64,000 bases of DNA from an uncultured Prevotellaceae bacterium (lineage in GTDB: Bacteria > Bacteroidota > Bacteroidia > Bacteroidales > Bacteroidaceae): positions 30,023 through 94,022 of the forward strand of contig CADCDK010000001.1 of the NCBI GenBank assembly GCA_902800185.1, written 5' to 3'. Every line of letters starts with the position of its first letter. Position 1 is the stretch's first letter. A program made the position numbers and the translations under genes. Shown one piece after another: positions 8,788 through 50,104 of the stretch. The notes below the pieces were generated by a model. The model did no database searches. It was not told the DNA's origin and saw nothing but the letters and a program-made list of their open reading frames with translations.

Positions 8788-9903
8788 ATGGCAGATACGA
8801 CAAACACGATATTACAAAAACTCGATGGGCTGGAGGCCCGCTTCGAGGAGGTATCGACCCTGATTACCGACCCCGACGTGATAGCCGACCAGAACCGATT
8901 TGTCAAACTGACGAAGGAATACAAGGATCTGGGCGACATCATGGATGCCCGCAAACGCTACATCGCCTGTCTGAACGGCATCAGGGAGGCCAAGGATATC
9001 CTTGCCAACGAGAGCGACCCGGAGATGAAGGAAATGGCACGCGAAGAACTCGCCGCCAACGAGGAGCTGCAACCCAAGCTGGAAGAGGAAATCAAGATTG
9101 CCCTCATTCCGAAAGACCCAGAGGATGCCAAGAACGTACAGATGGAGATTCGTGCCGGAACAGGCGGTGACGAAGCCTGTCTCTTTGCGGGCGACTTGTT
9201 CCAGATGTACAAGCGTTTCTGTGAGTCAAAAGGTTGGCAGCTCTCCATTACCGACTTCAACGAAGGGGCTGTGGGAGGCTACAAGGAAATCGACTTTGCC
9301 GTAAGCGGTACAGACGTATATGGAACGCTCAAGTATGAATCTGGCGTTCATCGCGTGCAGCGTGTCCCCGTGACAGAATCCAACGGTCGCATGCAGACTT
9401 CTGCCGCAACGGTTGCCGTACTGCCCGAGGCCGACAAATTCGAGGTACATGTCAACGAGGGTGAAATCAAATGGGACACCTTCCGCTCGTCAGGAGCCGG
9501 CGGGCAGAACGTGAACAAGGTGGAATCGGGTGTCCGTCTGCGCTACATGTGGAAGAACCCCAACACCGGGGAAACCGAGGAAATCCTGATAGAATGTACG
9601 GAGACCCGCGACCAGCCGAAGAACAAGGAGCGTGCCCTCTCCCGACTCTACACCTTTATATATGATAAGGAGCACCAGAAGTATGTAGATGACATCGCCA
9701 ACCGCCGAAAAAGTCTTGTCTCGACCGGTGACCGCTCGGCAAAAATCCGCACCTACAACTTCCCGCAGGGACGTGTCACCGATCACCGCATCGGTTTTAC
9801 CACGCATGACCTGAGCGGTTTCCTTGCCGGTAACATCCAAGACATGATTGACGCGCTGACCGTTGCCGAGAACGCAGAACGAATGAAAGAATCTGAACTA
9901 TAA
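8788..9903 (+). CDS. prfA: Peptide chain release factor 1
   Basis: Recognises UAA and UAG stop codons and triggers hydrolysis of the finished peptide on the ribosome. The 371-residue protein has the catalytic GGQ at 238–240 within SGAGGQNVNKVESG. The codon-reading PxT motif appears as PVT at 194–196 (PAT in E. coli), which marks RF1 rather than RF2. No programmed frameshift is present or expected. The ATG at 8788 follows AAGAAAC, a weak ribosome site typical of this phylum. It is followed 6 bases later by pyrF. Confidence 0.96.
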   Translation: MADTTNTILQKLDGLEARFEEVSTLITDPDVIADQNRFVKLTKEYKDLGDIMDARKRYIACLNGIREAKDILANESDPEMKEMAREELAANEELQPKLEEEIKIALIPKDPEDAKNVQMEIRAGTGGDEACLFAGDLFQMYKRFCESKGWQLSITDFNEGAVGGYKEIDFAVSGTDVYGTLKYESGVHRVQRVPVTESNGRMQTSAATVAVLPEADKFEVHVNEGEIKWDTFRSSGAGGQNVNKVESGVRLRYMWKNPNTGETEEILIECTETRDQPKNKERALSRLYTFIYDKEHQKYVDDIANRRKSLVSTGDRSAKIRTYNFPQGRVTDHRIGFTTHDLSGFLAGNIQDMIDALTVAENAERMKESEL

Positions 9904-10743: not shown

Positions 10744-11961
10744 ATGGATAAAATCATCAATGATCCGGTTTTTGGATTCATCAAAATCCCCCGGGGGTTG
10801 CTTTACGACATCGTCAAGCACCCTCTCATCCAACGCCTTACACGCATCAAACAGCTCGGCCTGGCATGTGTTGTTTACCCGGGAGCACAACACACACGCT
10901 TCCAGCATTCCCTCGGTGCCTTCCATCTGATGAGCGAAGCCGTACGCTCACTCTCACAGAAAGGAATCTTCATCTTCGACAGCGAAGCGGAAGCTGTGCA
11001 GGCAGCCATCCTCATGCACGACATTGGGCATGGACCGTTCTCACATGTCCTGGAGGACACCCTCATTTCAGGCATCTCCCACGAAGACATCTCCCTGCTC
11101 ATGATGGAACAAATCAACAAGGAGATGAACGGAGCCCTGAATCTTGCCATCGCCATCTTCAAAGACCAGTATCACAAACGATTCCTGCACCAGCTCATCA
11201 GCAGTCAGCTGGATATGGACAGACTGGACTATCTCCGCAGGGACAGCTTCTTCACAGGAGTTACCGAAGGCAACATCGGCTCTGCCCGCATCATTAAAAT
11301 GCTGAATGTCGTTGATGACCAACTGGTCGTTGAGCACAAGGGAATCTATTCCATAGAAAACTATCTGACCACAAGACGACTGATGTACTGGCAGGTGTAT
11401 CTGCACAAGACGACGGTCGCATACGAGAAAATGCTGGTCAATATTCTCAGAAGAGCCAAGCAGCTGGCACGGGAAGGAAAGGACATCTTTGCAGCTCCTG
11501 CCCTGCGCTACTATCTTTATAATGACGTGGACGCAAAGTTCTTCAGCGAACACCAAGAAGCACTTCATAACTATGAACTGTTGGACGACAACGATATCTG
11601 GAGCTCGGTGAAGGTGTGGGCTGGAAGTGATGACAAAATCTTGTCATTACTGGCACATAATCTTCTCTACAGAAATATCTTCCGAGTAGAAATCAGGGAG
11701 GAACCGATACCCGAGGAGGAAATCGCTGAGAAGCAGCAGGAATTAGCTCTTCGGGCGGGTGTTGGTTTTGACGACGCAAGCTACCTGATGAGTGTGAATA
11801 CCATTCAGAAGGACATGTACAACGTCAACGATGACAAAATCTCAATTCTTTACAAAGACAATACATGCAAAGACATTTCCGAAGCCTCGGAAATCCTGAA
11901 CGTGGCACTTCTTTCAAAAAAAATTCGTAAATATTATCTTTGTTATCATCGTTTTTCATAA
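10744..11961 (+). CDS. HD-domain phosphohydrolase (SAMHD1/dNTPase-like)
   Basis: A 405-residue cytoplasmic protein of the HD superfamily. The metal site is visible: H55 in [12 protein letters not shown]92–D93 in [12 protein letters not shown], and [11 protein letters not shown] near 157–165, the pattern of SAMHD1-type and dGTPase-like phosphohydrolases. A role in hydrolysing dNTPs or related nucleotides is an inference from the family; the substrate is unknown. The gene follows pyrF by 3 bases. Its last ~30 codons contain a TATCTTTG box (11935–11942), which may serve as an extra promoter for lpxD. Confidence 0.85.
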
Positions 11962-22722: not shown

Positions 22723-22755
22723 TGGCAATCTCAGAACGGGATTGCCACTTTTTTT
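22723..22755 (+). terminator. Rho-independent terminator after the antiporter gene
   Basis: TGGCAATC pairs with GATTGCCA around a 9-base loop, followed by a run of eight T residues. It lies 50 bases after the stop codon. Confidence 0.8.
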
Positions 22756-22756
22756 G

Positions 22757-22820
22757 CATCATTTTATGTCATTTTCCATCATTTTTTGCATTATTTTCCA
22801 TCATTTTCTCCATCATTTTG
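22757..22820. repeat. Degenerate CATCATTTT tandem repeats
   Basis: Five or more imperfect copies of CATCATTTT with 2–5 base spacers run directly after the terminator T-tract. They lead into a stretch with AAAATGACAAAA repeats (about 22850–22884). No coding frame is supported here. Confidence 0.7.
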
Positions 22821-22920
22821 TACCCAAAATTGGTAAATGGTAGGGGGTGAAAATGACAAAAGTAGGGACAAAAATGACAAAATTGGAGTTAAAAACGCCT
22901 AAAAATAGGGGTAAAATGTA

Positions 22921-23374
22921 AAAATGTCAATTTTGTCAATCGTCAATTTTGTCATTTTCGGGAGTCACGGGGGCCATTCTCATGCGCGGGGAATAAGTTA
23001 ACTATATTAATTATATATATATTTATTTTATTATATATTATATATATAGGCGGAAATTTTTCTGCACGGCCAAAACGCCCCTGAATTGACAATTGACAAA
23101 ATTGACAAAATTGACATTTACGTTTTTGTCCAGTAAAAAAAATGCCCATCATCCATCAGTTTCCGATGTTGGTTGGAAGGTAAGTAAACGACCATCACGG
23201 AAGCAGCTTCCGTCGGCCACCTTCCATCGAAATGCCCGCCACAGGGCAGGCTAACGACGGGCTCGGAACAGCCGTAACTCATTTGCATGTCGGTTTTTAG
23301 TTAACGTCCGTTAAATGAAAGATTTTGCGAGCGGAAAATTTTTCCCGTCCTGCTTTTGGGCGTAAATTTGCAGT
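22921..23374 (+). repeat. Intergenic repeat element, copy A
   Basis: This gene-free stretch is related along much of its length to 49337–49844. The order is: a left arm of TGTCAATTTTG units (22921–22958); a core of about 110 bp with ATTCTCATGCGCGGGG and an alternating AT tract (22960–23069); AAAACGCCCC; a right arm of TTGACAAAA units (23084–23119), inverse to the left arm; a GC-rich part (about 23180–23270); then a block with palindrome TTAACGTCCGTTAA (23301–23314) and TAAATTTG (23363–23370). The copies look about 85% alike in the core by eye. No protein frame is credible. The element ends 12 bases before the cdd stop codon. Confidence 0.8.
23301..23370 (+). promoter_or_regulatory. Palindrome plus −7 box at the end of repeat copy A
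   Basis: TTAACG-TC-CGTTAA (23301–23314) lies 48 bases upstream of TAAATTTG (23363–23370). The same arrangement with the same spacing occurs in copy B. If active here, it would transcribe toward cdd on the antisense strand, because no plus-strand gene follows. Confidence 0.5.
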
Positions 23375-23385
23375 AGAAAAAGCCT

Positions 23386-23865
23386 TTAATGCATGTTGGA
23401 ATCAACGAAGATGAGGGGCATGAGATCTTTGACACTTTGAACACGATAAATACCTCGAGTACCGTAGAGGAGTACTTCCAGGGGGCGTTGATAGCGGTCT
23501 TCCATCTCAAGCATCACCTGCCGGCAGGCACCACACGGCGAGATGGGGTCGGGCATAAGACCGTTACTGTTCTTGGCGGCAATAGCGAGCATTGTGATGG
23601 CCTCATGGGGTTTCTGGGACTGTGCAGCGAAGATGGCGGAACGCTCGGCACAAAGTCCCGAGGGGAAGGCGGCATTCTCCTGATTGGCTCCAATGACGAT
23701 GGAACCATCGGCAAGCCTCAAAGCGGCTCCCACGTGGAAATGGCTGTACTTGGCATAGGAATTGTCGGTAGCCTTGATAGCAGCCTCCACCAGTTCGCGC
23801 TCATCGACGGAAAGCTCCTCCATCGAACAGAACTGCATCTGTATTTCTATTCTGATATTCTTCAT
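23386..23865 (-). CDS. cdd: Cytidine deaminase
   Basis: Zinc enzyme deaminating cytidine and deoxycytidine to the uridine forms in pyrimidine salvage. The 159-residue protein has the motif CAERSAIF (zinc Cys plus the proton-shuttle Glu) and PCGACRQVM with the two other zinc cysteines. NAAFPSGLCAER binds the substrate. It is the last gene of a minus-strand cluster, 29 bases after the lipoprotein gene. Repeat copy A begins immediately beyond its 3' end. Confidence 0.95.
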   Translation of the reverse strand: MKNIRIEIQMQFCSMEELSVDERELVEAAIKATDNSYAKYSHFHVGAALRLADGSIVIGANQENAAFPSGLCAERSAIFAAQSQKPHEAITMLAIAAKNSNGLMPDPISPCGACRQVMLEMEDRYQRPLEVLLYGTRGIYRVQSVKDLMPLIFVDSNMH

Positions 23866-40343: not shown

Positions 40344-42256
40344 TGGATAAGAATACTATCACAGGATTTGTGCTCATCGCACTCGTTCTCATCGGATTCA
40401 GCTGGTGGTCGAGTCCATCAGAAGAAGAACAGCGTGCGGCTTTTGTCAAAGACTCTATTGAGCAGGTTGCCCGCGAGAAAGCCGAAGCACAAAAGACATT
40501 GGCACTGGAGAAAAAGGCAGAAGCCAACAAACAGAAAGCATTAGCAGACACTACAGCCCTCTTCCACAATGCCTTTGAAGGAACGGAACAGAAAGTTACC
40601 TTGCGTAACTCGAAGCTCGAGCTTACGCTAAACTCAAAAGGAGCCGCTGTAGAGAAAGTCGTCATCAAAGGTTTCAAGGACCGAGACGGCAACCCCGATC
40701 TCACCCTTTTCGACAAGGAAGACCAAAGCATCAGTTATATGTTGTCTGCCAAGGAAAGCAACATCATCACGAGCGACCTCTATTTCGAGCCGTCTCAGGT
40801 GACCGACTCCACTGTTGTTTTCACAGCACAGGCTGGCGAAGGCAAGGATGTAACAATGACCTATCGCTTAGGCCAAGACTACATGCTTCACATGCAGCTG
40901 CAAGTCAACGGTATGGATGGACTTTTTGCTCCCAATACCAACACGATGGATGTTAACTGGAGAGACATGTGTCGCCAACAGGAGAAAGGGTTTACCTTTG
41001 AAAACCGCTATGCTTCGCTCACGTGGCACAAGGTGGAGGGCGGAACCGATTATCTGCGCGAAACCAGCGAGTACAAGGACGAGCCCATCGAGGAAGATTT
41101 TGACTGGGTTGCCTATAAGAACCAGTTCTTCTCTGCTGTGATGATTACCAAGAACGACTTCAAGTCAGGCGCCCTCGCCACATCAGTTCCCCAAAAGAAG
41201 GGAAGCGGCTACCTGAAAGAATACGACATCCAGATGAAGACCTTTTTCGACCCCACAGGCAAGCAGGCTTCCGAGTTTGAATTCTACTATGGCCCCAACG
41301 ATTTCCACCTGCTGAAGACCGTAGAGGAACAGAGCACCTTCGGCAAGGACCTGGAGATGCAAGATCTTGTTTATTTGGGATGGACAATTTTCCGCTTCAT
41401 CAACCGATGGTTCACGCTGCCGCTTTTTGAAATGATTGCCGGTTTTGGCATCAATATGGCTATTGTGCTTATCCTTATCACGTTTATCCTCAAAGGCATC
41501 ACCTATCCTTTGGTCAAGAAGAGCTACATGAGCTCTGCGAAGATGCGTGTGCTAAAGCCCAAACTCGAAGAGGCAACCAAACAATTCAACAAGCCCGAGG
41601 ATGCCATGCAGAAACAGCAGGCTATGATGGCAGAATATTCAAAGTATGGTGTAAGTCCGCTGAGCGGTTGCCTGCCCATGCTTATCCAAATGCCAATCTG
41701 GATTGCTATGTTCCAGTTCGTACCTAACTCCATCCAACTGCGTGGACAGGGTTTCCTCTGGATTGACGACCTCTCTACCTACGACCCCATCATCGAGTGG
41801 GGCACTAATCTCTGGCTCATCGGCGACCACCTGTCACTGACGTGCATCCTCTTCTGCGCAGGACAGCTACTCTATTCTTGGATGATGGCCCGTCAGCAGC
41901 GCGACCAGATGGTCGGCGCACAGGCTGAGCAAATGAAAATGATGCAATGGATGATGTACATCATGCCGCTCATGTTCTTCTTCATGTTCAATGATTACAG
42001 CTCTGGTTTGAACTTCTACTATTTCGTTTCGCTCTTTATGAGTGCCGCCATCATGTTCGTGCTCCGCAAGACCACCAACGATGAGAAGCTGCTGAAGATT
42101 CTTGAAGCCCGCTATCAGGAGAACAAGAACAATCCCCAAAAGTTAAGTGGACTTGCCGCACGTCTGCAAGCCATGCAGGAACAGCAGAAAGAGATGCAGA
42201 GAAAACGCGAGGAACTGGAACGCAAGAAACGCGACCTTGGGAAGAAAGGGGTTTAA
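40343..42256 (+). CDS. yidC: Membrane protein insertase YidC
   Basis: Inserts and folds inner-membrane proteins, alone or with SecYEG. The 637-residue protein has the Gram-negative form: an N-terminal helix (about 5–22), a large periplasmic domain (about 50–350), and the conserved five-helix core (about 360–590). Core motifs include KSYMSSAKMRVLKPKLEEATK and YSKYGVSPLSGCLPMLIQMPIW. A charged C-terminal tail (about 600–637) may bind ribosomes. The start overlaps the pyrG stop by one base. Its stop codon lies in the first unit of an 8-bp tandem array. Confidence 0.95.
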   Translation: MDKNTITGFVLIALVLIGFSWWSSPSEEEQRAAFVKDSIEQVAREKAEAQKTLALEKKAEANKQKALADTTALFHNAFEGTEQKVTLRNSKLELTLNSKGAAVEKVVIKGFKDRDGNPDLTLFDKEDQSISYMLSAKESNIITSDLYFEPSQVTDSTVVFTAQAGEGKDVTMTYRLGQDYMLHMQLQVNGMDGLFAPNTNTMDVNWRDMCRQQEKGFTFENRYASLTWHKVEGGTDYLRETSEYKDEPIEEDFDWVAYKNQFFSAVMITKNDFKSGALATSVPQKKGSGYLKEYDIQMKTFFDPTGKQASEFEFYYGPNDFHLLKTVEEQSTFGKDLEMQDLVYLGWTIFRFINRWFTLPLFEMIAGFGINMAIVLILITFILKGITYPLVKKSYMSSAKMRVLKPKLEEATKQFNKPEDAMQKQQAMMAEYSKYGVSPLSGCLPMLIQMPIWIAMFQFVPNSIQLRGQGFLWIDDLSTYDPIIEWGTNLWLIGDHLSLTCILFCAGQLLYSWMMARQQRDQMVGAQAEQMKMMQWMMYIMPLMFFFMFNDYSSGLNFYYFVSLFMSAAIMFVLRKTTNDEKLLKILEARYQENKNNPQKLSGLAARLQAMQEQQKEMQRKREELERKKRDLGKKGV

Positions 42257-42314
42257 GAGTTTAAGAGTTTAAGAGCTTAAGAGTTTAAGAGTTTAAGAGT
42301 TTAAGAGCTTAAGG
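42251..42314. repeat. 8-bp tandem array (GTTTAAGA ×8) after yidC
   Basis: Eight contiguous 8-bp units: three GTTTAAGA, one GCTTAAGA, three GTTTAAGA, then GCTTAAGG. This gives a 32-bp higher-order repeat. The first unit contains the yidC stop; the last flows into AAGGAG, a ribosome-site-like sequence 24 bases before the S9 peptidase ATG. Confidence 0.9.
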
Positions 42315-42337: not shown

Positions 42338-44560
42338 ATGAACCATTCATTCAAAACAATAGTAGTGGCTGCTCTGCTCATTATGAGTGGAGTGAGCGCT
42401 TCCGCACAGACGATGATTCAGAGAAACAACATCAAGCTCACGAGTGACAGGATGACACCCGAGGCTCTATGGGCGATGGGCCGCATCGGGGGTTATGCCG
42501 CTTCGCCCGACGGCAAACACATTGTTTACAACGTCGCATACTATAGTGTCAAGGAGAACAAGAGTCATCACATATTATATATGATGGATGCCGATGGCAA
42601 AAACCAGAAGAAGCTGACCACCTCCACCAAGAGCGAAACCGATGCTGCATGGCTCTCCAATGAGCGTATTGCCTTTATCGTCGATGGCGAGGTATGGAGC
42701 ATGAACTCCGATGGCAGCAACCGCCACCAGCTCTCCAAGACCAACGGCAAAGTGGAGGGATTTCTCTTTTCGCCTGACCAAAAGCACATTGTGCTCATCA
42801 AGTCCATCCCCTACCACGAAAGCATACAAGAGAATCCGAGCGACCTGCCCAAGGCTACGGGTCGGTTGGTCACCGACCTGAACTACCGCCACTGGGATCA
42901 TTATGTGGAAAGCATTCCTCACCCGTTCCTTGCCCCTGTTGCCGACGATGGCACCATTGGCGAGGCGAAAGACATCTTAGAGGGAATGCCCTACGAGTGC
43001 CCGATGGCTCCGTTTGGTGGCATTGAGCAGTTGGCATGGAGTCCCGACTCCAAGAAGATTGCCTACACCTGCCGTATGAAGAAGGGTGTGGAGTATGCCA
43101 TCTCCACCGACTCCGACATCTTCCTCTATGATTTGGAAGCCGAGGAGGGAATGGTTGATAAGAATCGCAATCTGTGCAAAGAAGGTGTTGACCTTCCCAA
43201 CAACCCTTTTGCCAAGCAATCGGAAAATCGCGTTGATCCCACCAAGTCGATGAAGAATCAGCACATCAACAGCATTGGCAAGGAGAATGGATTTGATTAC
43301 AATGTCGGTTACGACCAGAATCCCAAGTTCTCGCCCGACGGTCGCTATGTGGCCTGGCTTTCGATGGAACGTGACGGCTATGAGAGCGACCGCAACCGTC
43401 TGTTGGTCTTCGACCTGAAGGAATGGAAGAAAACATACGTTACGGAAAGCTTTGACTCCAATGTGGACGACTTCTGCTGGTCGCCCGATTCCAAGACTCT
43501 CTATTTCATCGGCGTATGGCATGCAACAGAGAACATGTATCAGACGAATCTGAAAGGCGAGGTTACGCAGCTGACCAACGACTGGGCGGACTTCGGTTCC
43601 CTTCAGATGCTCAATGACAAGCAGATTCTCGCTGAACGTCACGACTATTTCAACGCAGCAGACCTCTATGTCGTCACACCCAACGCCAAAAAGCCTGAGA
43701 AGACAGAGGTGAAGCAGATAACCGAGGAAAACAAGCATATCTTCGACCAGTTGGCAAAGGGCAAGGTGCAGCAGCGCTGGGTGAAGACCACAGATGGCAA
43801 GGACATGCTCTACTGGGTCATCTTGCCTCCCGACTTCGACGAGAGCAAGAAGTACCCCACCCTGCTTTTCTGCGAGGGAGGTCCGCAAAGTCCTGTCAGC
43901 CAGTTCTGGAGCTACCGATGGAATTTCATGATCATGGCCTCACAGGGCTATATCGTCATCGCGCCCAACCGTCACGGGCTTCCTGGCTTCGGAAGTGAGT
44001 GGTGCGAGGAAATCTCCGGCGACTGGACAGGTCAGTGTATGGATGACTACCTGACGGCCATCGACGATGCTGCCGCCAACCTCCCCTATGTTGACAAAGA
44101 CCATCTGGGTGCCGTCGGTGCCTCTTTCGGGGGCTTCTCCGTCTATTACCTGGCAGGTCATCACAACAAACGTTTCAAGTGCTTCATCGCTCACGACGGA
44201 GCCTTCAACCTTGAATCCATGTACACCGACACCGAGGAGGTATGGTTCTCCAACTGGGAATATGAGGATGCCTATTGGAACAAGGACCTCAGCGAGAACG
44301 CACGCAAGACTTACGAGAACTCCCCTCACAAGTTTGTTGATCAGTGGGACACCCCCATCCTCTGCATCCATGGCGAGAAAGACTATCGCATCAATGCCAA
44401 TCAGGGAATGGGAGCGTTCAACGCTGCCCGTCTGCGTGGTATCGAGGCCCAACTGCTCATCTTCCCCGACGAGAACCACTGGGTGCTGAAGCCACAGAAC
44501 GGTATCCTTTGGCAGCGCACTTTTTTCAACTGGCTCAACAAATGGCTGAAGAACGAATAG
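42338..44560 (+). CDS. S9-family prolyl-oligopeptidase-like serine peptidase
   Basis: A 740-residue secreted peptidase. A signal peptide (1–23, ending SASAQ) precedes a beta-propeller (about 40–480) with SPDGKHIVY, SPDSKKIAY and SPDGRYVAW WD40-like repeats. The alpha/beta hydrolase domain covers about 490–740. The catalytic triad is visible: S596 in GASFGG, D682 in HGEKDYR and H714 in PDENHW. This is the dipeptidyl peptidase IV/acylaminoacyl peptidase layout, acting in the periplasm or at the surface on peptides. Two ribosome-site-like AAGGAG segments precede the ATG. 8-bp tandem arrays lie on both sides. Confidence 0.92.
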   Translation: MNHSFKTIVVAALLIMSGVSASAQTMIQRNNIKLTSDRMTPEALWAMGRIGGYAASPDGKHIVYNVAYYSVKENKSHHILYMMDADGKNQKKLTTSTKSETDAAWLSNERIAFIVDGEVWSMNSDGSNRHQLSKTNGKVEGFLFSPDQKHIVLIKSIPYHESIQENPSDLPKATGRLVTDLNYRHWDHYVESIPHPFLAPVADDGTIGEAKDILEGMPYECPMAPFGGIEQLAWSPDSKKIAYTCRMKKGVEYAISTDSDIFLYDLEAEEGMVDKNRNLCKEGVDLPNNPFAKQSENRVDPTKSMKNQHINSIGKENGFDYNVGYDQNPKFSPDGRYVAWLSMERDGYESDRNRLLVFDLKEWKKTYVTESFDSNVDDFCWSPDSKTLYFIGVWHATENMYQTNLKGEVTQLTNDWADFGSLQMLNDKQILAERHDYFNAADLYVVTPNAKKPEKTEVKQITEENKHIFDQLAKGKVQQRWVKTTDGKDMLYWVILPPDFDESKKYPTLLFCEGGPQSPVSQFWSYRWNFMIMASQGYIVIAPNRHGLPGFGSEWCEEISGDWTGQCMDDYLTAIDDAAANLPYVDKDHLGAVGASFGGFSVYYLAGHHNKRFKCFIAHDGAFNLESMYTDTEEVWFSNWEYEDAYWNKDLSENARKTYENSPHKFVDQWDTPILCIHGEKDYRINANQGMGAFNAARLRGIEAQLLIFPDENHWVLKPQNGILWQRTFFNWLNKWLKNE

Positions 44561-44613
44561 TAAAATCGGAAATCGTGAAATAGTGAAATAGTGAAATCGT
44601 AAAATCGTAAAAT
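44561..44613. repeat. 8-bp tandem array (T[GA]AAAT[CA]G) before the MFS gene
   Basis: Six units of about 8 bp (TAAAATCG, GAAATCG, TGAAATAG twice, TGAAATCG, TAAAATCG) fill the whole gap between the S9 peptidase stop and the MFS start. No ribosome binding site is visible inside. Confidence 0.85.
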
Positions 44614-44616
44614 AAA

Positions 44617-46317: not shown

Positions 46318-48954
46318 ATGCGAAACTTAAGATTCCTATTCCTATTGACATGTCTGCTGCCCCTGAGCCTGTTTGCGGCAGACAACGAGAAACATTTCAA
46401 CAAGGGTCATTTCACCCTCTATCCCTCCCTTCAGGTGAACGGGAACGAGGGCGTTGCCGCAGCCTTTGCCGGCAGAAGCGACCACTTCGTCATTGTGGCC
46501 GGAGGCTGCAACTTCCCCGAGACCCCTGCGGCCGAAGGCGGGCAGAAAAAGTTCTACGACGATATCTGGGTACTCGAGCTCGACAAGGACAGAGGATACT
46601 ACATCAAAAGAGCCTATGCGAACTGGAAAAAAGTCGGCTCCCTCCCCCGTCCCATCGCCTACGGAGCCAGCGTGAGTGTTGCTGATGGCGTGGTATGCTT
46701 GGGCGGTACGTCCGACGGTCAGACCTCCCTGAACGAGGTCTGCCTCCTTTCCTTCAAGAACGGCAAACTCGCCATCAAGCCCCTGCCACCCCTTCCCGTA
46801 GGTCTTGACCAAATGGCAGCAGCCTATGGCAACGGCAACATCTACGTACTGGGCGGACAGAGCAACGGCAAGCCTAACACCCACGTATATTCCCTGGCAT
46901 ACGATGAAAACGCCACGGCATGGACGGAGATTGACGTGCCCGCCGAAACAGCCAATACACTGGCCGCCCTCCAGCCCTGTGCCATCGTACAGAACGGCTC
47001 CGTCGGCATGGAGCTCTACTTCTTCGGCGGCTACTATCCCGATAGGAAAGTTGCCAACACCACCGCCTGCTCCTACACCCCCAACAGGCGCGAGCCGTGG
47101 CAGCAACTGAAGCCCACCGACTTCGCCCTTGTCGGAGCAAGCGCCGTCACCTGCGGAGCCTCCAACATTCTCTTCTTCGGAGGCGTCAACAGACAGGTCT
47201 TCGAGGCTGCCATCCAGCACCCACGCCCCGACTATCTCACCCACCCCGCCGAGTGGTACCAGTTCCGCGACTCCATCCTCGTCTATAACACCGTCACCCA
47301 TGCTTGGTCCACACACTTCCCCAGCAAGCGCATCGCCCGTGCCGGCGCATCTGTTGTCCCAGGCGTCACCAACAACTCTTGGATTGTTATCGACGGCGAG
47401 GAGAAGCCCGGCATCCGCTCTGCCGACGTCACCTCCGTGGAAATCAGCTACACCGCCCACTTTGGCTGGATCAACTGGACCGTACTCGTGCTCTACCTGA
47501 TTGGCATGCTCTGGCTCGGCTACTACTTCATGAAACAAGAAGGCAACGCCGACGACTTCTTTAAGGGCGGCAACCGCATCCCCTGGTGGGCGGCCGGCAT
47601 CAGCATCTTCGCCACCATGCTCTCCGCCATCACCTACATGTCCATCCCTGCCAAGGCGTTCATGACCGACTGGACCTACTACCCCATGCAGGTATGCATC
47701 CTCCTTGTGTCGTTCCCCGTCATCAAGTACTTCCTCCCCTTCTTCCGCCGCCTGAACATCACCACCGCCTACGAGTATCTTGAGCACCGCTTCAACTATC
47801 CCATCCGCCTCATGGCGAGCATCCTCTTCATCGTCTTCATGGTGGCGCGCATGGCACTGGTGCTCTTCCTCCCCTCGCTCGCCATGACCGCCGTTACCGG
47901 CATCAATATCTACCTCTGCATCGTCATCATGGCCATTGTCACCATCATCTACTGCACCATGGGTGGCGTGGAGGCCGTTGTCTGGGGCGATGTCGTCCAG
48001 GGCATCATCCTTGTGGGCGGTGCCATCCTCGCTGCCGCCTATCTCATGACGAACACTGGCAACGGAGCCTCCGACTTCTTCCAGATTGCCTGGGACAACG
48101 ACAAGTTCCGCCTATTCGACTGGTCCTTCGACTATCGCACCGCTACCTTCTGGGTTGTCATCCTCGGCGGCATTGCCAACAACCTCATTAGCTACACCAG
48201 CGACCAGACCGTCATCCAGCGCTACCTCACCACCAAGGACGAGCAGAGCGCCGCCCGAAGCATCATGACCAACGGTCTGATGAGCGTCTTCGTTACCATC
48301 GCCTTCTTCACCATCGGCACCGGTCTCTACACCTTCTACCAGACCCACCCCGTGGCCATGGACCTCACCATGCAGAAGAACGACGCCATCTTCCCCTTCT
48401 TCATGATGAGCCAACTGCCCACCGGCTTGGCAGGCCTGCTCATTGCCGCCGTCTTCGCGGCAACCATGTCCACCATCTCCTCCAACATCAACAGCATCTC
48501 CACCGCCTTCACCGTTGACATCTACAAGAAAGCGCGCCCACACGTCAGCGACAGGGGCACTCTCCTCACCGCCCGCGTCACGGGCATCATCTCCGGACTT
48601 ATAGGCATGTTCATCGCCATCCTCATGGCAACGGTCAACATCCAGTCGCTGCTCGACTACTTCAACACCATTCTCGGGCTCCTTTCCGGTGGCATCGGCG
48701 GTCTGTTCATCATGGGAATCTTCTTCAGCCATATCAGTTCGCGCGCTGCCTTCGCCGGCTTCCTTGTCGGCACGGCAACCGTATTCTGGATGAACTTCTG
48801 CACGCCCGCCAACTTCCTGCTCTTCGGTTTCGTCAGCATGGCCGTCTCCGTCATCGTCGCCCTGCTCTGCTCCCTCGTCTGGAAGGAGCGCCGTCCCCTG
48901 AAGGGCTTCACCTGGAAGACGTTAGGCAGGCCAGCACAGTCAAAGCAAGGCTGA
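46318..48954 (+). CDS. Kelch mutarotase – sodium:solute symporter fusion (NanM-SSS type)
   Basis: An 878-residue two-part protein. A signal peptide (about 1–21) leads into a six-bladed Kelch domain (about 30–375) of the cyclically permuted mutarotase/NanM type; blades show VAGGCNFPE, CLGGTSDG, VLGGQSNGK, FFGGYYPD and FFGGVNRQ. From about 385 a sodium:solute symporter domain with about 13 helices follows (WLGYYFMKQEGNADDFFKGGNRIPWW…), with NNLISYTSDQTVIQRYL in the conserved core. The layout suggests a periplasmic epimerase tied to its own transporter, most simply for sialic acid. No nanA or nanE is adjacent. The start at 46318 gives the signal peptide; an in-frame start at 46276 overlaps the hairpin. 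Third positions are strongly C-biased. Confidence 0.9.
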   Translation: MRNLRFLFLLTCLLPLSLFAADNEKHFNKGHFTLYPSLQVNGNEGVAAAFAGRSDHFVIVAGGCNFPETPAAEGGQKKFYDDIWVLELDKDRGYYIKRAYANWKKVGSLPRPIAYGASVSVADGVVCLGGTSDGQTSLNEVCLLSFKNGKLAIKPLPPLPVGLDQMAAAYGNGNIYVLGGQSNGKPNTHVYSLAYDENATAWTEIDVPAETANTLAALQPCAIVQNGSVGMELYFFGGYYPDRKVANTTACSYTPNRREPWQQLKPTDFALVGASAVTCGASNILFFGGVNRQVFEAAIQHPRPDYLTHPAEWYQFRDSILVYNTVTHAWSTHFPSKRIARAGASVVPGVTNNSWIVIDGEEKPGIRSADVTSVEISYTAHFGWINWTVLVLYLIGMLWLGYYFMKQEGNADDFFKGGNRIPWWAAGISIFATMLSAITYMSIPAKAFMTDWTYYPMQVCILLVSFPVIKYFLPFFRRLNITTAYEYLEHRFNYPIRLMASILFIVFMVARMALVLFLPSLAMTAVTGINIYLCIVIMAIVTIIYCTMGGVEAVVWGDVVQGIILVGGAILAAAYLMTNTGNGASDFFQIAWDNDKFRLFDWSFDYRTATFWVVILGGIANNLISYTSDQTVIQRYLTTKDEQSAARSIMTNGLMSVFVTIAFFTIGTGLYTFYQTHPVAMDLTMQKNDAIFPFFMMSQLPTGLAGLLIAAVFAATMSTISSNINSISTAFTVDIYKKARPHVSDRGTLLTARVTGIISGLIGMFIAILMATVNIQSLLDYFNTILGLLSGGIGGLFIMGIFFSHISSRAAFAGFLVGTATVFWMNFCTPANFLLFGFVSMAVSVIVALLCSLVWKERRPLKGFTWKTLGRPAQSKQG

Positions 48955-48999: not shown

Positions 49000-49089
49000 A
49001 AAACGCCCCGCAATTAACAATTAACAAAAATAACATTTTTAACAGGAAAGAGGGAGTTGACACCATGCTTGTGTGCTAACTCCCTCTTT
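49000..49089 (+). repeat. Left inverted repeat of copy B
   Basis: Starts AAAACGCCCCGCAATTAAC and pairs with 50016–50104 in inverse orientation. The outer 65 bases differ at about four positions. The inner 43 bases form a hairpin with the same fold at both ends. Confidence 0.8.
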
Positions 49090-49091
49090 TT
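49047..49091 (+). terminator. Terminator-like hairpin in the left inverted repeat
   Basis: AAAGAGGGAGTT (49047–49058) pairs perfectly with AACTCCCTCTTT (49078–49089), then TT. It is the first hairpin after the Kelch–symporter gene and likely ends that transcript. Confidence 0.7.
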
Positions 49092-49336
49092 CAGTTGCTT
49101 AGATTGAGCCATCTGTTGTTCCAACTGCTATTACGGTGAGCAGCTAACCGATGATTTTTGGTATTTGCTGGCAGTTAACTTGCACGTTTTTCAGTGTTTT
49201 TCCTCCTTAAACGGGCTATTTGATGACAAATTCGTAGCCGTAATGGTTCTTTTGCGGGCTTGGGCACATCGGATTCCCCCTCTTAGTGACCGTACGAAAA
49301 TGGGGGGTGCATGCAGAAAACGTGGTTAAGAAATGT

Positions 49337-49844
49337 GAAAATGTTATTTTTGTTAATTGTTATTTTTGTTATTTTGGGGGTCATGGGGGCAATTCTCATG
49401 CGCGGGGGGTTAGTTAAATATATTAATATATATATATTTATTTTATTATATTATATATATATTTAGGCGGCGATTTTTCTGCACGGAAACGCCCCGCAAT
49501 TAACAAATAACAAAATTAACATTTTTGATGCGGATACTGTGTGGCACCCTTCATCCTGTCAGAAAAACTTGACGGTGGGCAGCGCAGCCCATCGACACCC
49601 ACAGGCTCCGCGCGCGCAGGCGGCGGTGCTCCCCATCCGTTGCGATGGCGTTTCCCCACGCCCTGCCCGGAAGCCGCTTCTGTCAGCCACAGGGCAGCGC
49701 AACGTCTGCCACAAGTCAGGTTTCCGTCAGGTTCACAATGGGCGTAAGTCATTTGCAGGGCGGTTTTTAGTTAACGTCCGTTAAATGAAAGATTTTGCGG
49801 TAAAAATATTTCCACCATCCTGCTTTTGGGCGTAAATTTGCAGT
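49337..49844 (+). repeat. Core and promoter block shared with copy A
   Basis: Left arm 49337–49375 (TGTTATTTTTGTTAATTG units); core 49376–49486 with ATTCTCATGCGCGGGG and an alternating AT tract; AAACGCCCCGC; right arm 49497–49527 (TTAACAAA units). A GC-rich part with CGGAAGC…CACAGGGCAG elements also found in copy A follows, then the block TTAACGTCCGTTAA to TAAATTTGCAGT (49771–49844), nearly identical to copy A. Confidence 0.8.
49771..49840 (+). promoter_or_regulatory. Palindrome and −7 box driving the truncated element frame
   Basis: TTAACG-TC-CGTTAA (49771–49784) lies 48 bases upstream of TAAATTTG (49833–49840), followed by a ~55 nt leader with AAGGAGG before the ATG at 49903. Conservation of this block in both copies argues that it is functional or recently was. 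Confidence 0.55.
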
Positions 49845-49902
49845 GGAATTCGTTCCAAGAGAATCATTTTTCGGCAAATCAAATAAAAGGAGGAATCAAA
49901 TT

Positions 49903-50040
49903 ATGGAAGTTTTGAATTACAGTACGAATTACAAGGGAACATTCCCGCTGGCCATGCTCAGGGAACTGGCTGAATGGGTGGCAAGAGAAATCCAAGAAAA
50001 AAGTAGATATCTGAAAAAGAGGAGGCTAGCACAAAAGTTA
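49903..50040 (+). pseudogene. Truncated reading frame in copy B, unknown protein
   Basis: MEVLNYSTNYKGTFPLAMLR begins 8 bases after AAAGGAGG, an unusually strong ribosome site for this phylum. About 46 element-specific codons follow (…ELAEWVAREIQEKSRYL, then a basic KKRRLAQK stretch). The frame then runs into the right inverted repeat and stays open antisense to leuB until 50406, which is probably accidental. It looks like the N-terminus of a gene whose body was lost when the right repeat joined. I do not recognise the family. Confidence 0.45.
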
Positions 50041-50104
50041 GGTGCCAGCTCCCTCTTTCCTGTTGAAATGTTATTTTTGTTAATTGTTAATTGCGGGGCG
50101 TTTT
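50016..50104 (-). repeat. Right inverted repeat of copy B
   Basis: Inverse copy of 49000–49089, including a hairpin AAAGAGGAGGCTAGCAC (50016–50032) with GTGCCAGCTCCCTCTTT (50042–50058). Bases 50087–50104 are also the last five codons and stop codon of leuB. On the minus strand the hairpin lies just past the leuB stop, so it may terminate the leu operon. Confidence 0.8.

Follow-up and report, generated by a model that had tools for sequence, protein, structure and literature searches.

Inverted arms of element-specific repeat units around an A/T-rich centre in a putative mobile element family of Prevotella-type bacteria

Why would the two arms of an intergenic inverted repeat match each other within one copy and not between two copies in the same genome? 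The question is raised by a 64,000-nucleotide stretch of an uncultured Prevotellaceae genome (the window), in which two such copies, A (22914-23378) and B (49331-49850), lie between genes. Using blastn, we found that they have a centre (A 22914-23107, B 49331-49521; 84% over 196 columns) and a putative promoter block (A 23198-23378, B 49668-49848; 79% over 183 columns) in common, in agreement with the initial annotation, which had proposed a shared core and promoter block. The inverted arms of A (22925-22948 and 23084-23107) are 24 nt long and 96% complementary, those of B (49338-49365 and 49498-49525) are 28 nt long and 89% complementary, and the arms consist of TTGACA units in A and of TTAACA/ATAACA units in B, so that the described agreement within a copy and disagreement between copies is borne out. 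Copy A has a permease gene as one neighbour and, convergent with it, a cytidine deaminase gene as the other, and its putative promoter block stops just short of the 3' end of the latter (23386-23865, minus strand). A 30-base block, GTTAACGTCCGTTAAATGAAAGATTTTGCG, is exact in both copies and was found in 0 of 100 shuffles, far beyond chance. The motif CATGCGCGGGG, which had been called invariant, is indeed exact in A and B; it is weak by itself, because three matches with at most one mismatch occur in the window vs 1.4 expected by chance, and it is absent from those copies of a related species (G014) that were read. The features of both copies are collected in Table 1, together with the units of the complete elements found in other genomes.

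Table 1. Parts of copies A and B, with positions in the window, and repeat units of six complete elements from related loci.
Feature	Position	Strand	Sequence or remark
A centre-left arm	22921..22959	-	read outward from core: AAAATGACAAAATTGACGATTGACAAAATTGACA
A core	22960..23071	.	CATGCGCGGGG at 22981-22991 and alternating A/T tract
A centre-right arm	23072..23119	+	AAAACGCCCCTGAATTGACAATTGACAAAATTGACAAAATTGACATTT
A putative promoter block	23198..23378	+	palindrome TTAACGTCCGTTAA at 23301-23314
B left terminal arm	49000..49040	+	AAAACGCCCCGCAATTAACAATTAACAAAAATAACATTTTT
Hairpin AAAGAGGGAGTT...AACTCCCTCTTT	49047..49089	.	just inside B left end
B centre-left arm	49337..49375	-	
B core, putative DNA-unwinding region	49376..49486	.	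CATGCGCGGGG at 49397-49407 and alternating A/T tract
B centre-right arm	49487..49526	+	AAACGCCCCGCAATTAACAAATAACAAAATTAACATTTTT
B putative promoter block	49668..49848	+	TTAACGTCCGTTAA at 49771-49784
B remnant reading frame	49903..50010	+	read by eye
B right terminal arm	50066..50104	-	reverse complement AAAACGCCCCGCAATTAACAATTAACAAAAATAACATTT
Complete element L265			unit ATTGACAA
Complete element L266			unit TTTTGAC
Complete element L269			unit AAAAGTGC
Complete element L275			unit ATGAAC
Complete element L279			unit GGAGAC
Complete element L283			unit TTTTGTAAC

Upon examining the rest of the assembly (G000; 2.63 Mb in 54 contigs, 84% complete), we observed extra full or partial copies on contigs C30 (in two places), C11, C34 and C35. 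The element is therefore not confined to two copies. Each element has a unit of its own, namely AATTGACA in A, AATAACA/AATTAACA in B, AAATGACC in C30 and AAATGACA in C34/C35. Arrays of three TGACA units (gaps of 1-4) occur four times in the whole assembly, all in A, C34 and C35 (reversed-pattern control, 0), and arrays of three TAACA units occur six times in the 2.63 Mb, all in the four arms of B (reversed-pattern control, 3). Between B and C34/C35 the TAACA/TGACA difference is present in nine of ten units across three arms when compared by eye, in elements whose compared half of the centre is 95% identical, and C34 retains a single TTAACA unit, as expected of an intermediate. In G014, a centre that lies beside a cytidine deaminase gene, like A, has mostly AAATGACC units in both arms; if G014 and A go back to one shared insertion, both arms have changed, and two insertions are also possible.

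These copies bear directly on the earlier proposal that selection acts on a hairpin, of DNA or RNA, into which the two centre arms fold. The centre arms remain complementary in A, B, C30 and the centres of relatives, and single-stranded DNA folding is strong in both copies (z = -6.2 for A and z = -5.3 for B), as such a hairpin would lead one to expect, yet scores of this size are what any good inverted repeat gives, and the search against Rfam returned no match in the window at the gathering threshold, on which count a known structured RNA was rejected. The mirrored substitutions themselves are real, and the additional copies strengthen rather than refute them; the interpretation first placed on them is supported in part. 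The same unit change is found within an arm and at the two ends of the element, kilobases from the centre in full-length relatives; because arms so far apart change together, pairing of the central arms cannot be the whole reason, and two-arm pairing does not require units within one arm to change jointly. Furthermore, the joint change of all units confounds any covariation test of arm pairing. Selection for a folded structure fails to account for this pattern and we consider it highly improbable; sequence-specific recognition of the repeated unit, or recombinational homogenisation of the repeats, fits better.

The ends of the element are visible in B, whose arm recurs at both termini, inverted at the right one, with the repeat unit of the centre; copy B thus forms the central part of an element that is 1.1 kb long (49000-50104). 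The original extents of both copies accordingly had to be redrawn: A runs from about 22914 to 23378, and B gains two further arms. The ends of B align in inverted orientation (49001-49040 and 50066-50103), which gives it terminal inverted repeats of the kind by which MITEs are recognised. The hairpin just inside the left end has counterparts inside the right end of B and inside the two ends that C34 and C35 carry, and may be a transcription terminator; the terminator scan listed none at 49047-49089. B is flanked by a symporter-type gene ending at 48954 and, in convergent orientation on the other strand, by a gene of the isopropylmalate/isocitrate dehydrogenase family. When read by eye, the remnant frame of B starts like the HU-HIG gene of C35 and continues with sequence like the end of the last right-half frame of C35 (...RELAEWVAREI), a junction that points to an internal deletion. 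B is probably a deletion derivative that has kept all four arms, and A would have kept the centre and promoter block only. Like MITEs, B is short, derived by deletion and bounded by inverted ends; it differs from them in having no known transposase parent, in retaining a centre and in showing, by eye, no target site duplication.

A fuller version of the element is found on two further contigs, where C34 stops within a centre and C35 starts in the right half of one. Judging by these contig ends, which are not joined in the assembly, the two appear to be halves of a single, longer element, 5.5 kb or more in length. Its order is left end, SSB-like protein (a weak match, below the cut-off), M15-type endolysin, small protein, BT4734/DUF3987 primase-helicase, 107-aa protein and centre; past the centre, HU-HIG and then two small frames precede the right end, with the putative promoter block of C35 upstream of the HU-HIG gene. 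The same stretch of the element lies at two contig ends (C30:1-88 and C35:10699-10786), and the assembly seems to be broken at element repeats because C30 and C35 end in this stretch. In the C11 copy (L029), the matched part follows a tRNA-Cys gene (1817-1892) at a distance of about 190 bases.

The main protein of C34 scores above the cut-offs for the BT4734-like family (PF08800; 37.2 bits, cut-off 22.4) and for DUF3987 (PF13148; 31.1 bits, cut-off 27), and the main protein of a related locus, L073, is also above the cut-off for both. In an alignment of seven proteins, residues of primase motifs I and II (IDID, H125) do not vary, and neither do G424 and K425, which we take to be the Walker A motif. 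The primase motifs are those given in PMC5862659, which, in the portion available to us, lists the BT4734-like proteins as a primase family and DUF3987 as a predicted helicase of mobile elements, and which in that portion does not describe the arms or ends reported here. A and B themselves have no primase-helicase gene, and are placed in its family because of the shared centre and, for B, the ends. Wall hydrolases accompany the primase-helicase, as the M15 endolysin in C34, as an endolysin-type protein (phrog_873) in L073 and, by eye, seemingly in the other complete elements too; the SSB-like frame of L073 has no match in Pfam or PHROGs. In the right half, HU-HIG (PF18291) is matched above the cut-off by one gene of C35 and two genes of L269, and is seen by eye in L279 and L283, whereas the right halves of L073 and L275 encode proteins without a Pfam match. 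By eye, L283 also has extra genes in between, one resembling a DNA methyltransferase.

Named genome contigs were then searched with the alignment of the seven primase-helicases alone. This gave 30 loci, of which 21 carry a Prevotella or Prevotellaceae label and six are not new (judged by length and place, L261, L265, L276, L278, L280 and L283 are the contigs of L072, L073, L077, L075, L076 and L074, respectively, from the earlier locus set). An end arm and both centre arms are present in 10 of the 30, and six of these 10 have all four arms, two of the six (L265 and L283) being on contigs of the earlier set; the other 20 loci do not show three arms, some because of a contig end. The arms are ordered as end-left forward, centre-left inverted, centre-right forward and end-right inverted. 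The complete elements span about 5.9 to 10.7 kb, and the cores of the 10 elements are 83-182 bp long with 65-79% A+T, vs 49-58% for their loci. When compared by eye, many of the units seem to have in common a pattern with AC as its end. Among the three-arm elements (L262, L271, L276 and L282), no right end was found within 3 kb in L262 and the sequence of the other three ends soon after the centre; the right-hand centre array of L271 has forward units followed by inverted ones, against the predicted geometry. No integrase or transposase was recognised in the six complete elements (one by a Pfam and PHROGs scan, five by eye), and no target duplication or attachment-site repeat was seen by eye at the element ends, nor was a circular form found. 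The left end arm of L283 begins 3 bases after a tRNA-Pro gene (11363-11438), which is suggestive only as a hint of an integration site. Additionally, in 8 of 11 elements the end-left arm is closer to centre-right than to centre-left, and in four of seven four-arm elements its best match is end-right. We considered whether the four arms arose from two adjacent half-transposons or from duplication of an integration site, and set both aside, the comparison of arm resemblance having given no clear pattern.

Relatives of the DUF3987 primase-helicase were found in 67 of 150 genomes of the genus (E <= 1e-20). We took 100 of the listed places; 95 loci, C34 included, have enough upstream sequence. An inverted pair (score >= 16, gap 30-350) lies within 4 kb upstream in 31 of the 95, vs 15 of 95 in the downstream control and none in shuffles; some of the 31 are G/C-rich repeats of another kind, and 16 were judged iteron-like. 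Unit arrays are alike at >= 90% in 75 of 983 within-locus pairs vs 19 of 6000 between-locus pairs. Furthermore, 35 of 36 arms have their best match in an arm of their own element (0 of 2000 label shuffles), a figure that is descriptive because the arms were chosen for matching. Across the primase-helicase tree (n=32), units differ among related proteins; within a seven-member GGTCACA clade, L103 and L124 have GGTTACA throughout both arms. The GGTCACA subgroup has centre arms, with no end arm found and two loci having almost no sequence past the gene.

Next, we compared the arms of each locus with those of swapped partners, under a rule that had been suggested by the discovery loci in both of the following tests. 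By the fixed rule, an A/T-rich centre is present in 35 of 93 loci of the genus set and in 7 of 32 loci of a second set, mostly from other genera of the family. At a score of >= 16, the centre-right arm matches the 3' region of its own gene in 9 of 35 and 1 of 7 loci (10/42), vs 3/504 swapped pairs, and at >= 14 in 11/42, all in the predicted orientation, vs 13/504. The pattern is thus clear in part of the genus and thin outside it. In the automated test of the 30 loci, upstream sequence was available in 25 and a centre was found in 11; at a score of >= 20 a centre arm matches its own 3' side in 8/11, all in the predicted orientation, vs 0/165 swapped pairs, and at >= 16 in 8/11 vs 7/165. The end arm lies at most 273 bases from the gene stop in 10 of 11 cases of the fixed-rule test.

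A contrasting explanation involves no recognition at all, and regards the arms as ordinary Prevotella-type tandem repeats that are kept alike by slippage and gene conversion, with A and B as insertion relics. Short tandem repeats are widespread in these genomes, and heptamer arrays are abundant around the loci and within coding linkers, because of which background repeats are kept as a rival; in some elements (L265, L279 and B) the likeness between an end arm and another arm extends far past single units, as copying would produce. Gene conversion within an element, the second option of the initial annotation, can also account for joint change in distant arms, and the comparison of arm resemblance does not separate conversion from selection. 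On the other hand, the same arm geometry recurs across loci, and array density peaks at 11.3 per 10 kb at 500-1000 bp past the matched primase-helicase stretch, a match that often ends before the gene does, with 6.6 and 5.0 per 10 kb in the next bins and mostly 1 to 4 in the others. In the genome of the window, moreover, the searched arrays are confined to the elements, by which background repeat as the sole cause was rejected. Overall, we regard the explanation without recognition as rather unlikely. The arm units do resemble short tandem repeats of the heptamer type, yet they are element-specific.

The reading that we consider likely is that a protein of the element reads the arms as iterons, that the centre serves as an origin of replication and carries divergent promoters, and that A and B are what is left of members of a mobile element family that is integrated in the chromosomes of Prevotella-type bacteria. 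The intergenic element would then be a centre of control from which two gene sets diverge. One set encodes a primase of the archaeo-eukaryotic type linked to a DUF3987 helicase, along with a peptidoglycan hydrolase and small proteins, and the other encodes HU-HIG or other proteins without an assignment. The A/T-rich core of the centre lies between inverted arrays of a 6-9 bp unit, which recurs at both ends in complete elements. The iterons would be bound by a protein that the element encodes, possibly the primase-helicase, its small neighbour or HU-HIG; binding would open the A/T-rich core for the start of replication and would also control the divergent promoters, and the end arrays could let the same protein recognise the ends of the element. 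Units would diverge between elements because each keeps only the sites that its own protein reads, possibly with the aid of recombination among arms. A replication origin can take the form of an A/T-rich core bordered by iteron arrays and close to the gene of a primase-helicase, and different units in related elements fit an initiator and its site changing together. We infer movement because of the patchy occurrence, the several copies in a single genome, the deletion derivative and the inverted ends.

The units could instead serve as operators only, bound by an element-encoded repressor that controls the divergent promoters, with replication uninvolved. The centre does lie between divergent gene sets and adjoins the conserved putative promoter block, and an A/T-rich core is expected of promoters as well; the same units, however, stand at the ends, outside the genes, and what an operator would do there is not obvious; furthermore, the main gene is a predicted replication gene. 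This makes an operator-only function unlikely in our judgement. A more far-reaching version of the iteron and origin reading, which we advance tentatively, is that these are mobile elements free of an integrase, in which the primase-helicase or HU-HIG reads its own private iteron at the two ends and the two centre arms, replication excises or inserts the element, and the fast-changing unit acts as a self/non-self code that separates sister elements in one cell. If the iteron reading is true, a widespread gene set would be recognised as a defined mobile element whose ends and origin have been mapped, it would offer many natural protein/iteron pairs for studying how initiator and site change together, and HU-HIG proteins would acquire a testable role; it would be categorically new if the initiator itself proves to use the ends.

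Phage satellites are among the closest known systems. In SaPIs, the origin has an A/T-rich stretch with iterons to either side of it, and the initiators are element-specific. Like the P4, SaPI/PICI and PLE satellites, the elements described here are small, integrated and equipped with primase and helicase; they differ in having no recognised integrase, packaging or helper-phage gene, in repeating iteron-like arrays at both element ends and in that no relative was found in viral contigs. The reported HU superfamily expansion of Bacteroidetes, to which the HU-HIG genes in the right halves of C35 and L269 can be compared, was reportedly proposed in a 2017 study to recognise mobile elements. According to the part of PMC7145576 available to us, PLE has an origin with iterons bound by its own initiator, and primase and helicase of satellites are fused in P4. 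The 188-bp repeat of Prevotella intermedia/nigrescens was rejected as a match and set apart from these elements because its published description, in the portion accessible, says that it is without terminal inverted repeats. A literature search, with most subscription journals lying outside it, returned no description of these arms.

Beyond the genus, the order-wide search at a stringent cut-off gave 0 of 119 genomes, and the DUF3987 profile matched 81 of 201 genomes of the family, in which the arms were rarely found. The HU-like protein alone, used as a query against genome contigs, gave 39 pattern matches, none of them confirmed; the plasmid search gave no relative, and in viral contigs no relative was confirmed. 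Four linear, unannotated stool scaffolds labelled 'Bacteriophage sp.' (L221-L224; MT838840, MT838077, MT839699 and MT839686) have weak DUF3987-like matches (20-27% identity), and may be pieces of bacterial chromosomes; in L223 a GGTCATTAA array immediately follows the DUF3987-like frame.

Several further repeats were observed at these loci. In L077, L091, L102, L105 and L108, part of the primase-helicase frame is encoded by in-frame short repeats or by a G/C-rich repeat of intergenic type, and in several loci the in-frame repeats fall between primase and helicase, as if repeats had entered coding sequence; the in-gene arrays of L081 and L100 are similar to the arm unit of the same locus. L088 has four palindromic GGTCACA arms (9147-9538, oriented) at a spacing of ~113-123 bp with A/T-rich spacers, which resemble a tandem multiplication of the centre. 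L034 (G018, ~1400-1640) has a centre in which a long alternating A/T tract is flanked by GAAACAAA/TTTGTTTC arms. In the window, an imperfect array of CATCATTTTC-like units lies beside A (22750-22819), with TGACAAAA repeats at 22846-22885, and may be an earlier relic of that element. Finally, two octamer arrays, GTTTAAGA (42251-42313, 7.9 copies) and AATAGTGA (44556-44614, 7.5 copies), each lie between consecutive plus-strand reading frames.
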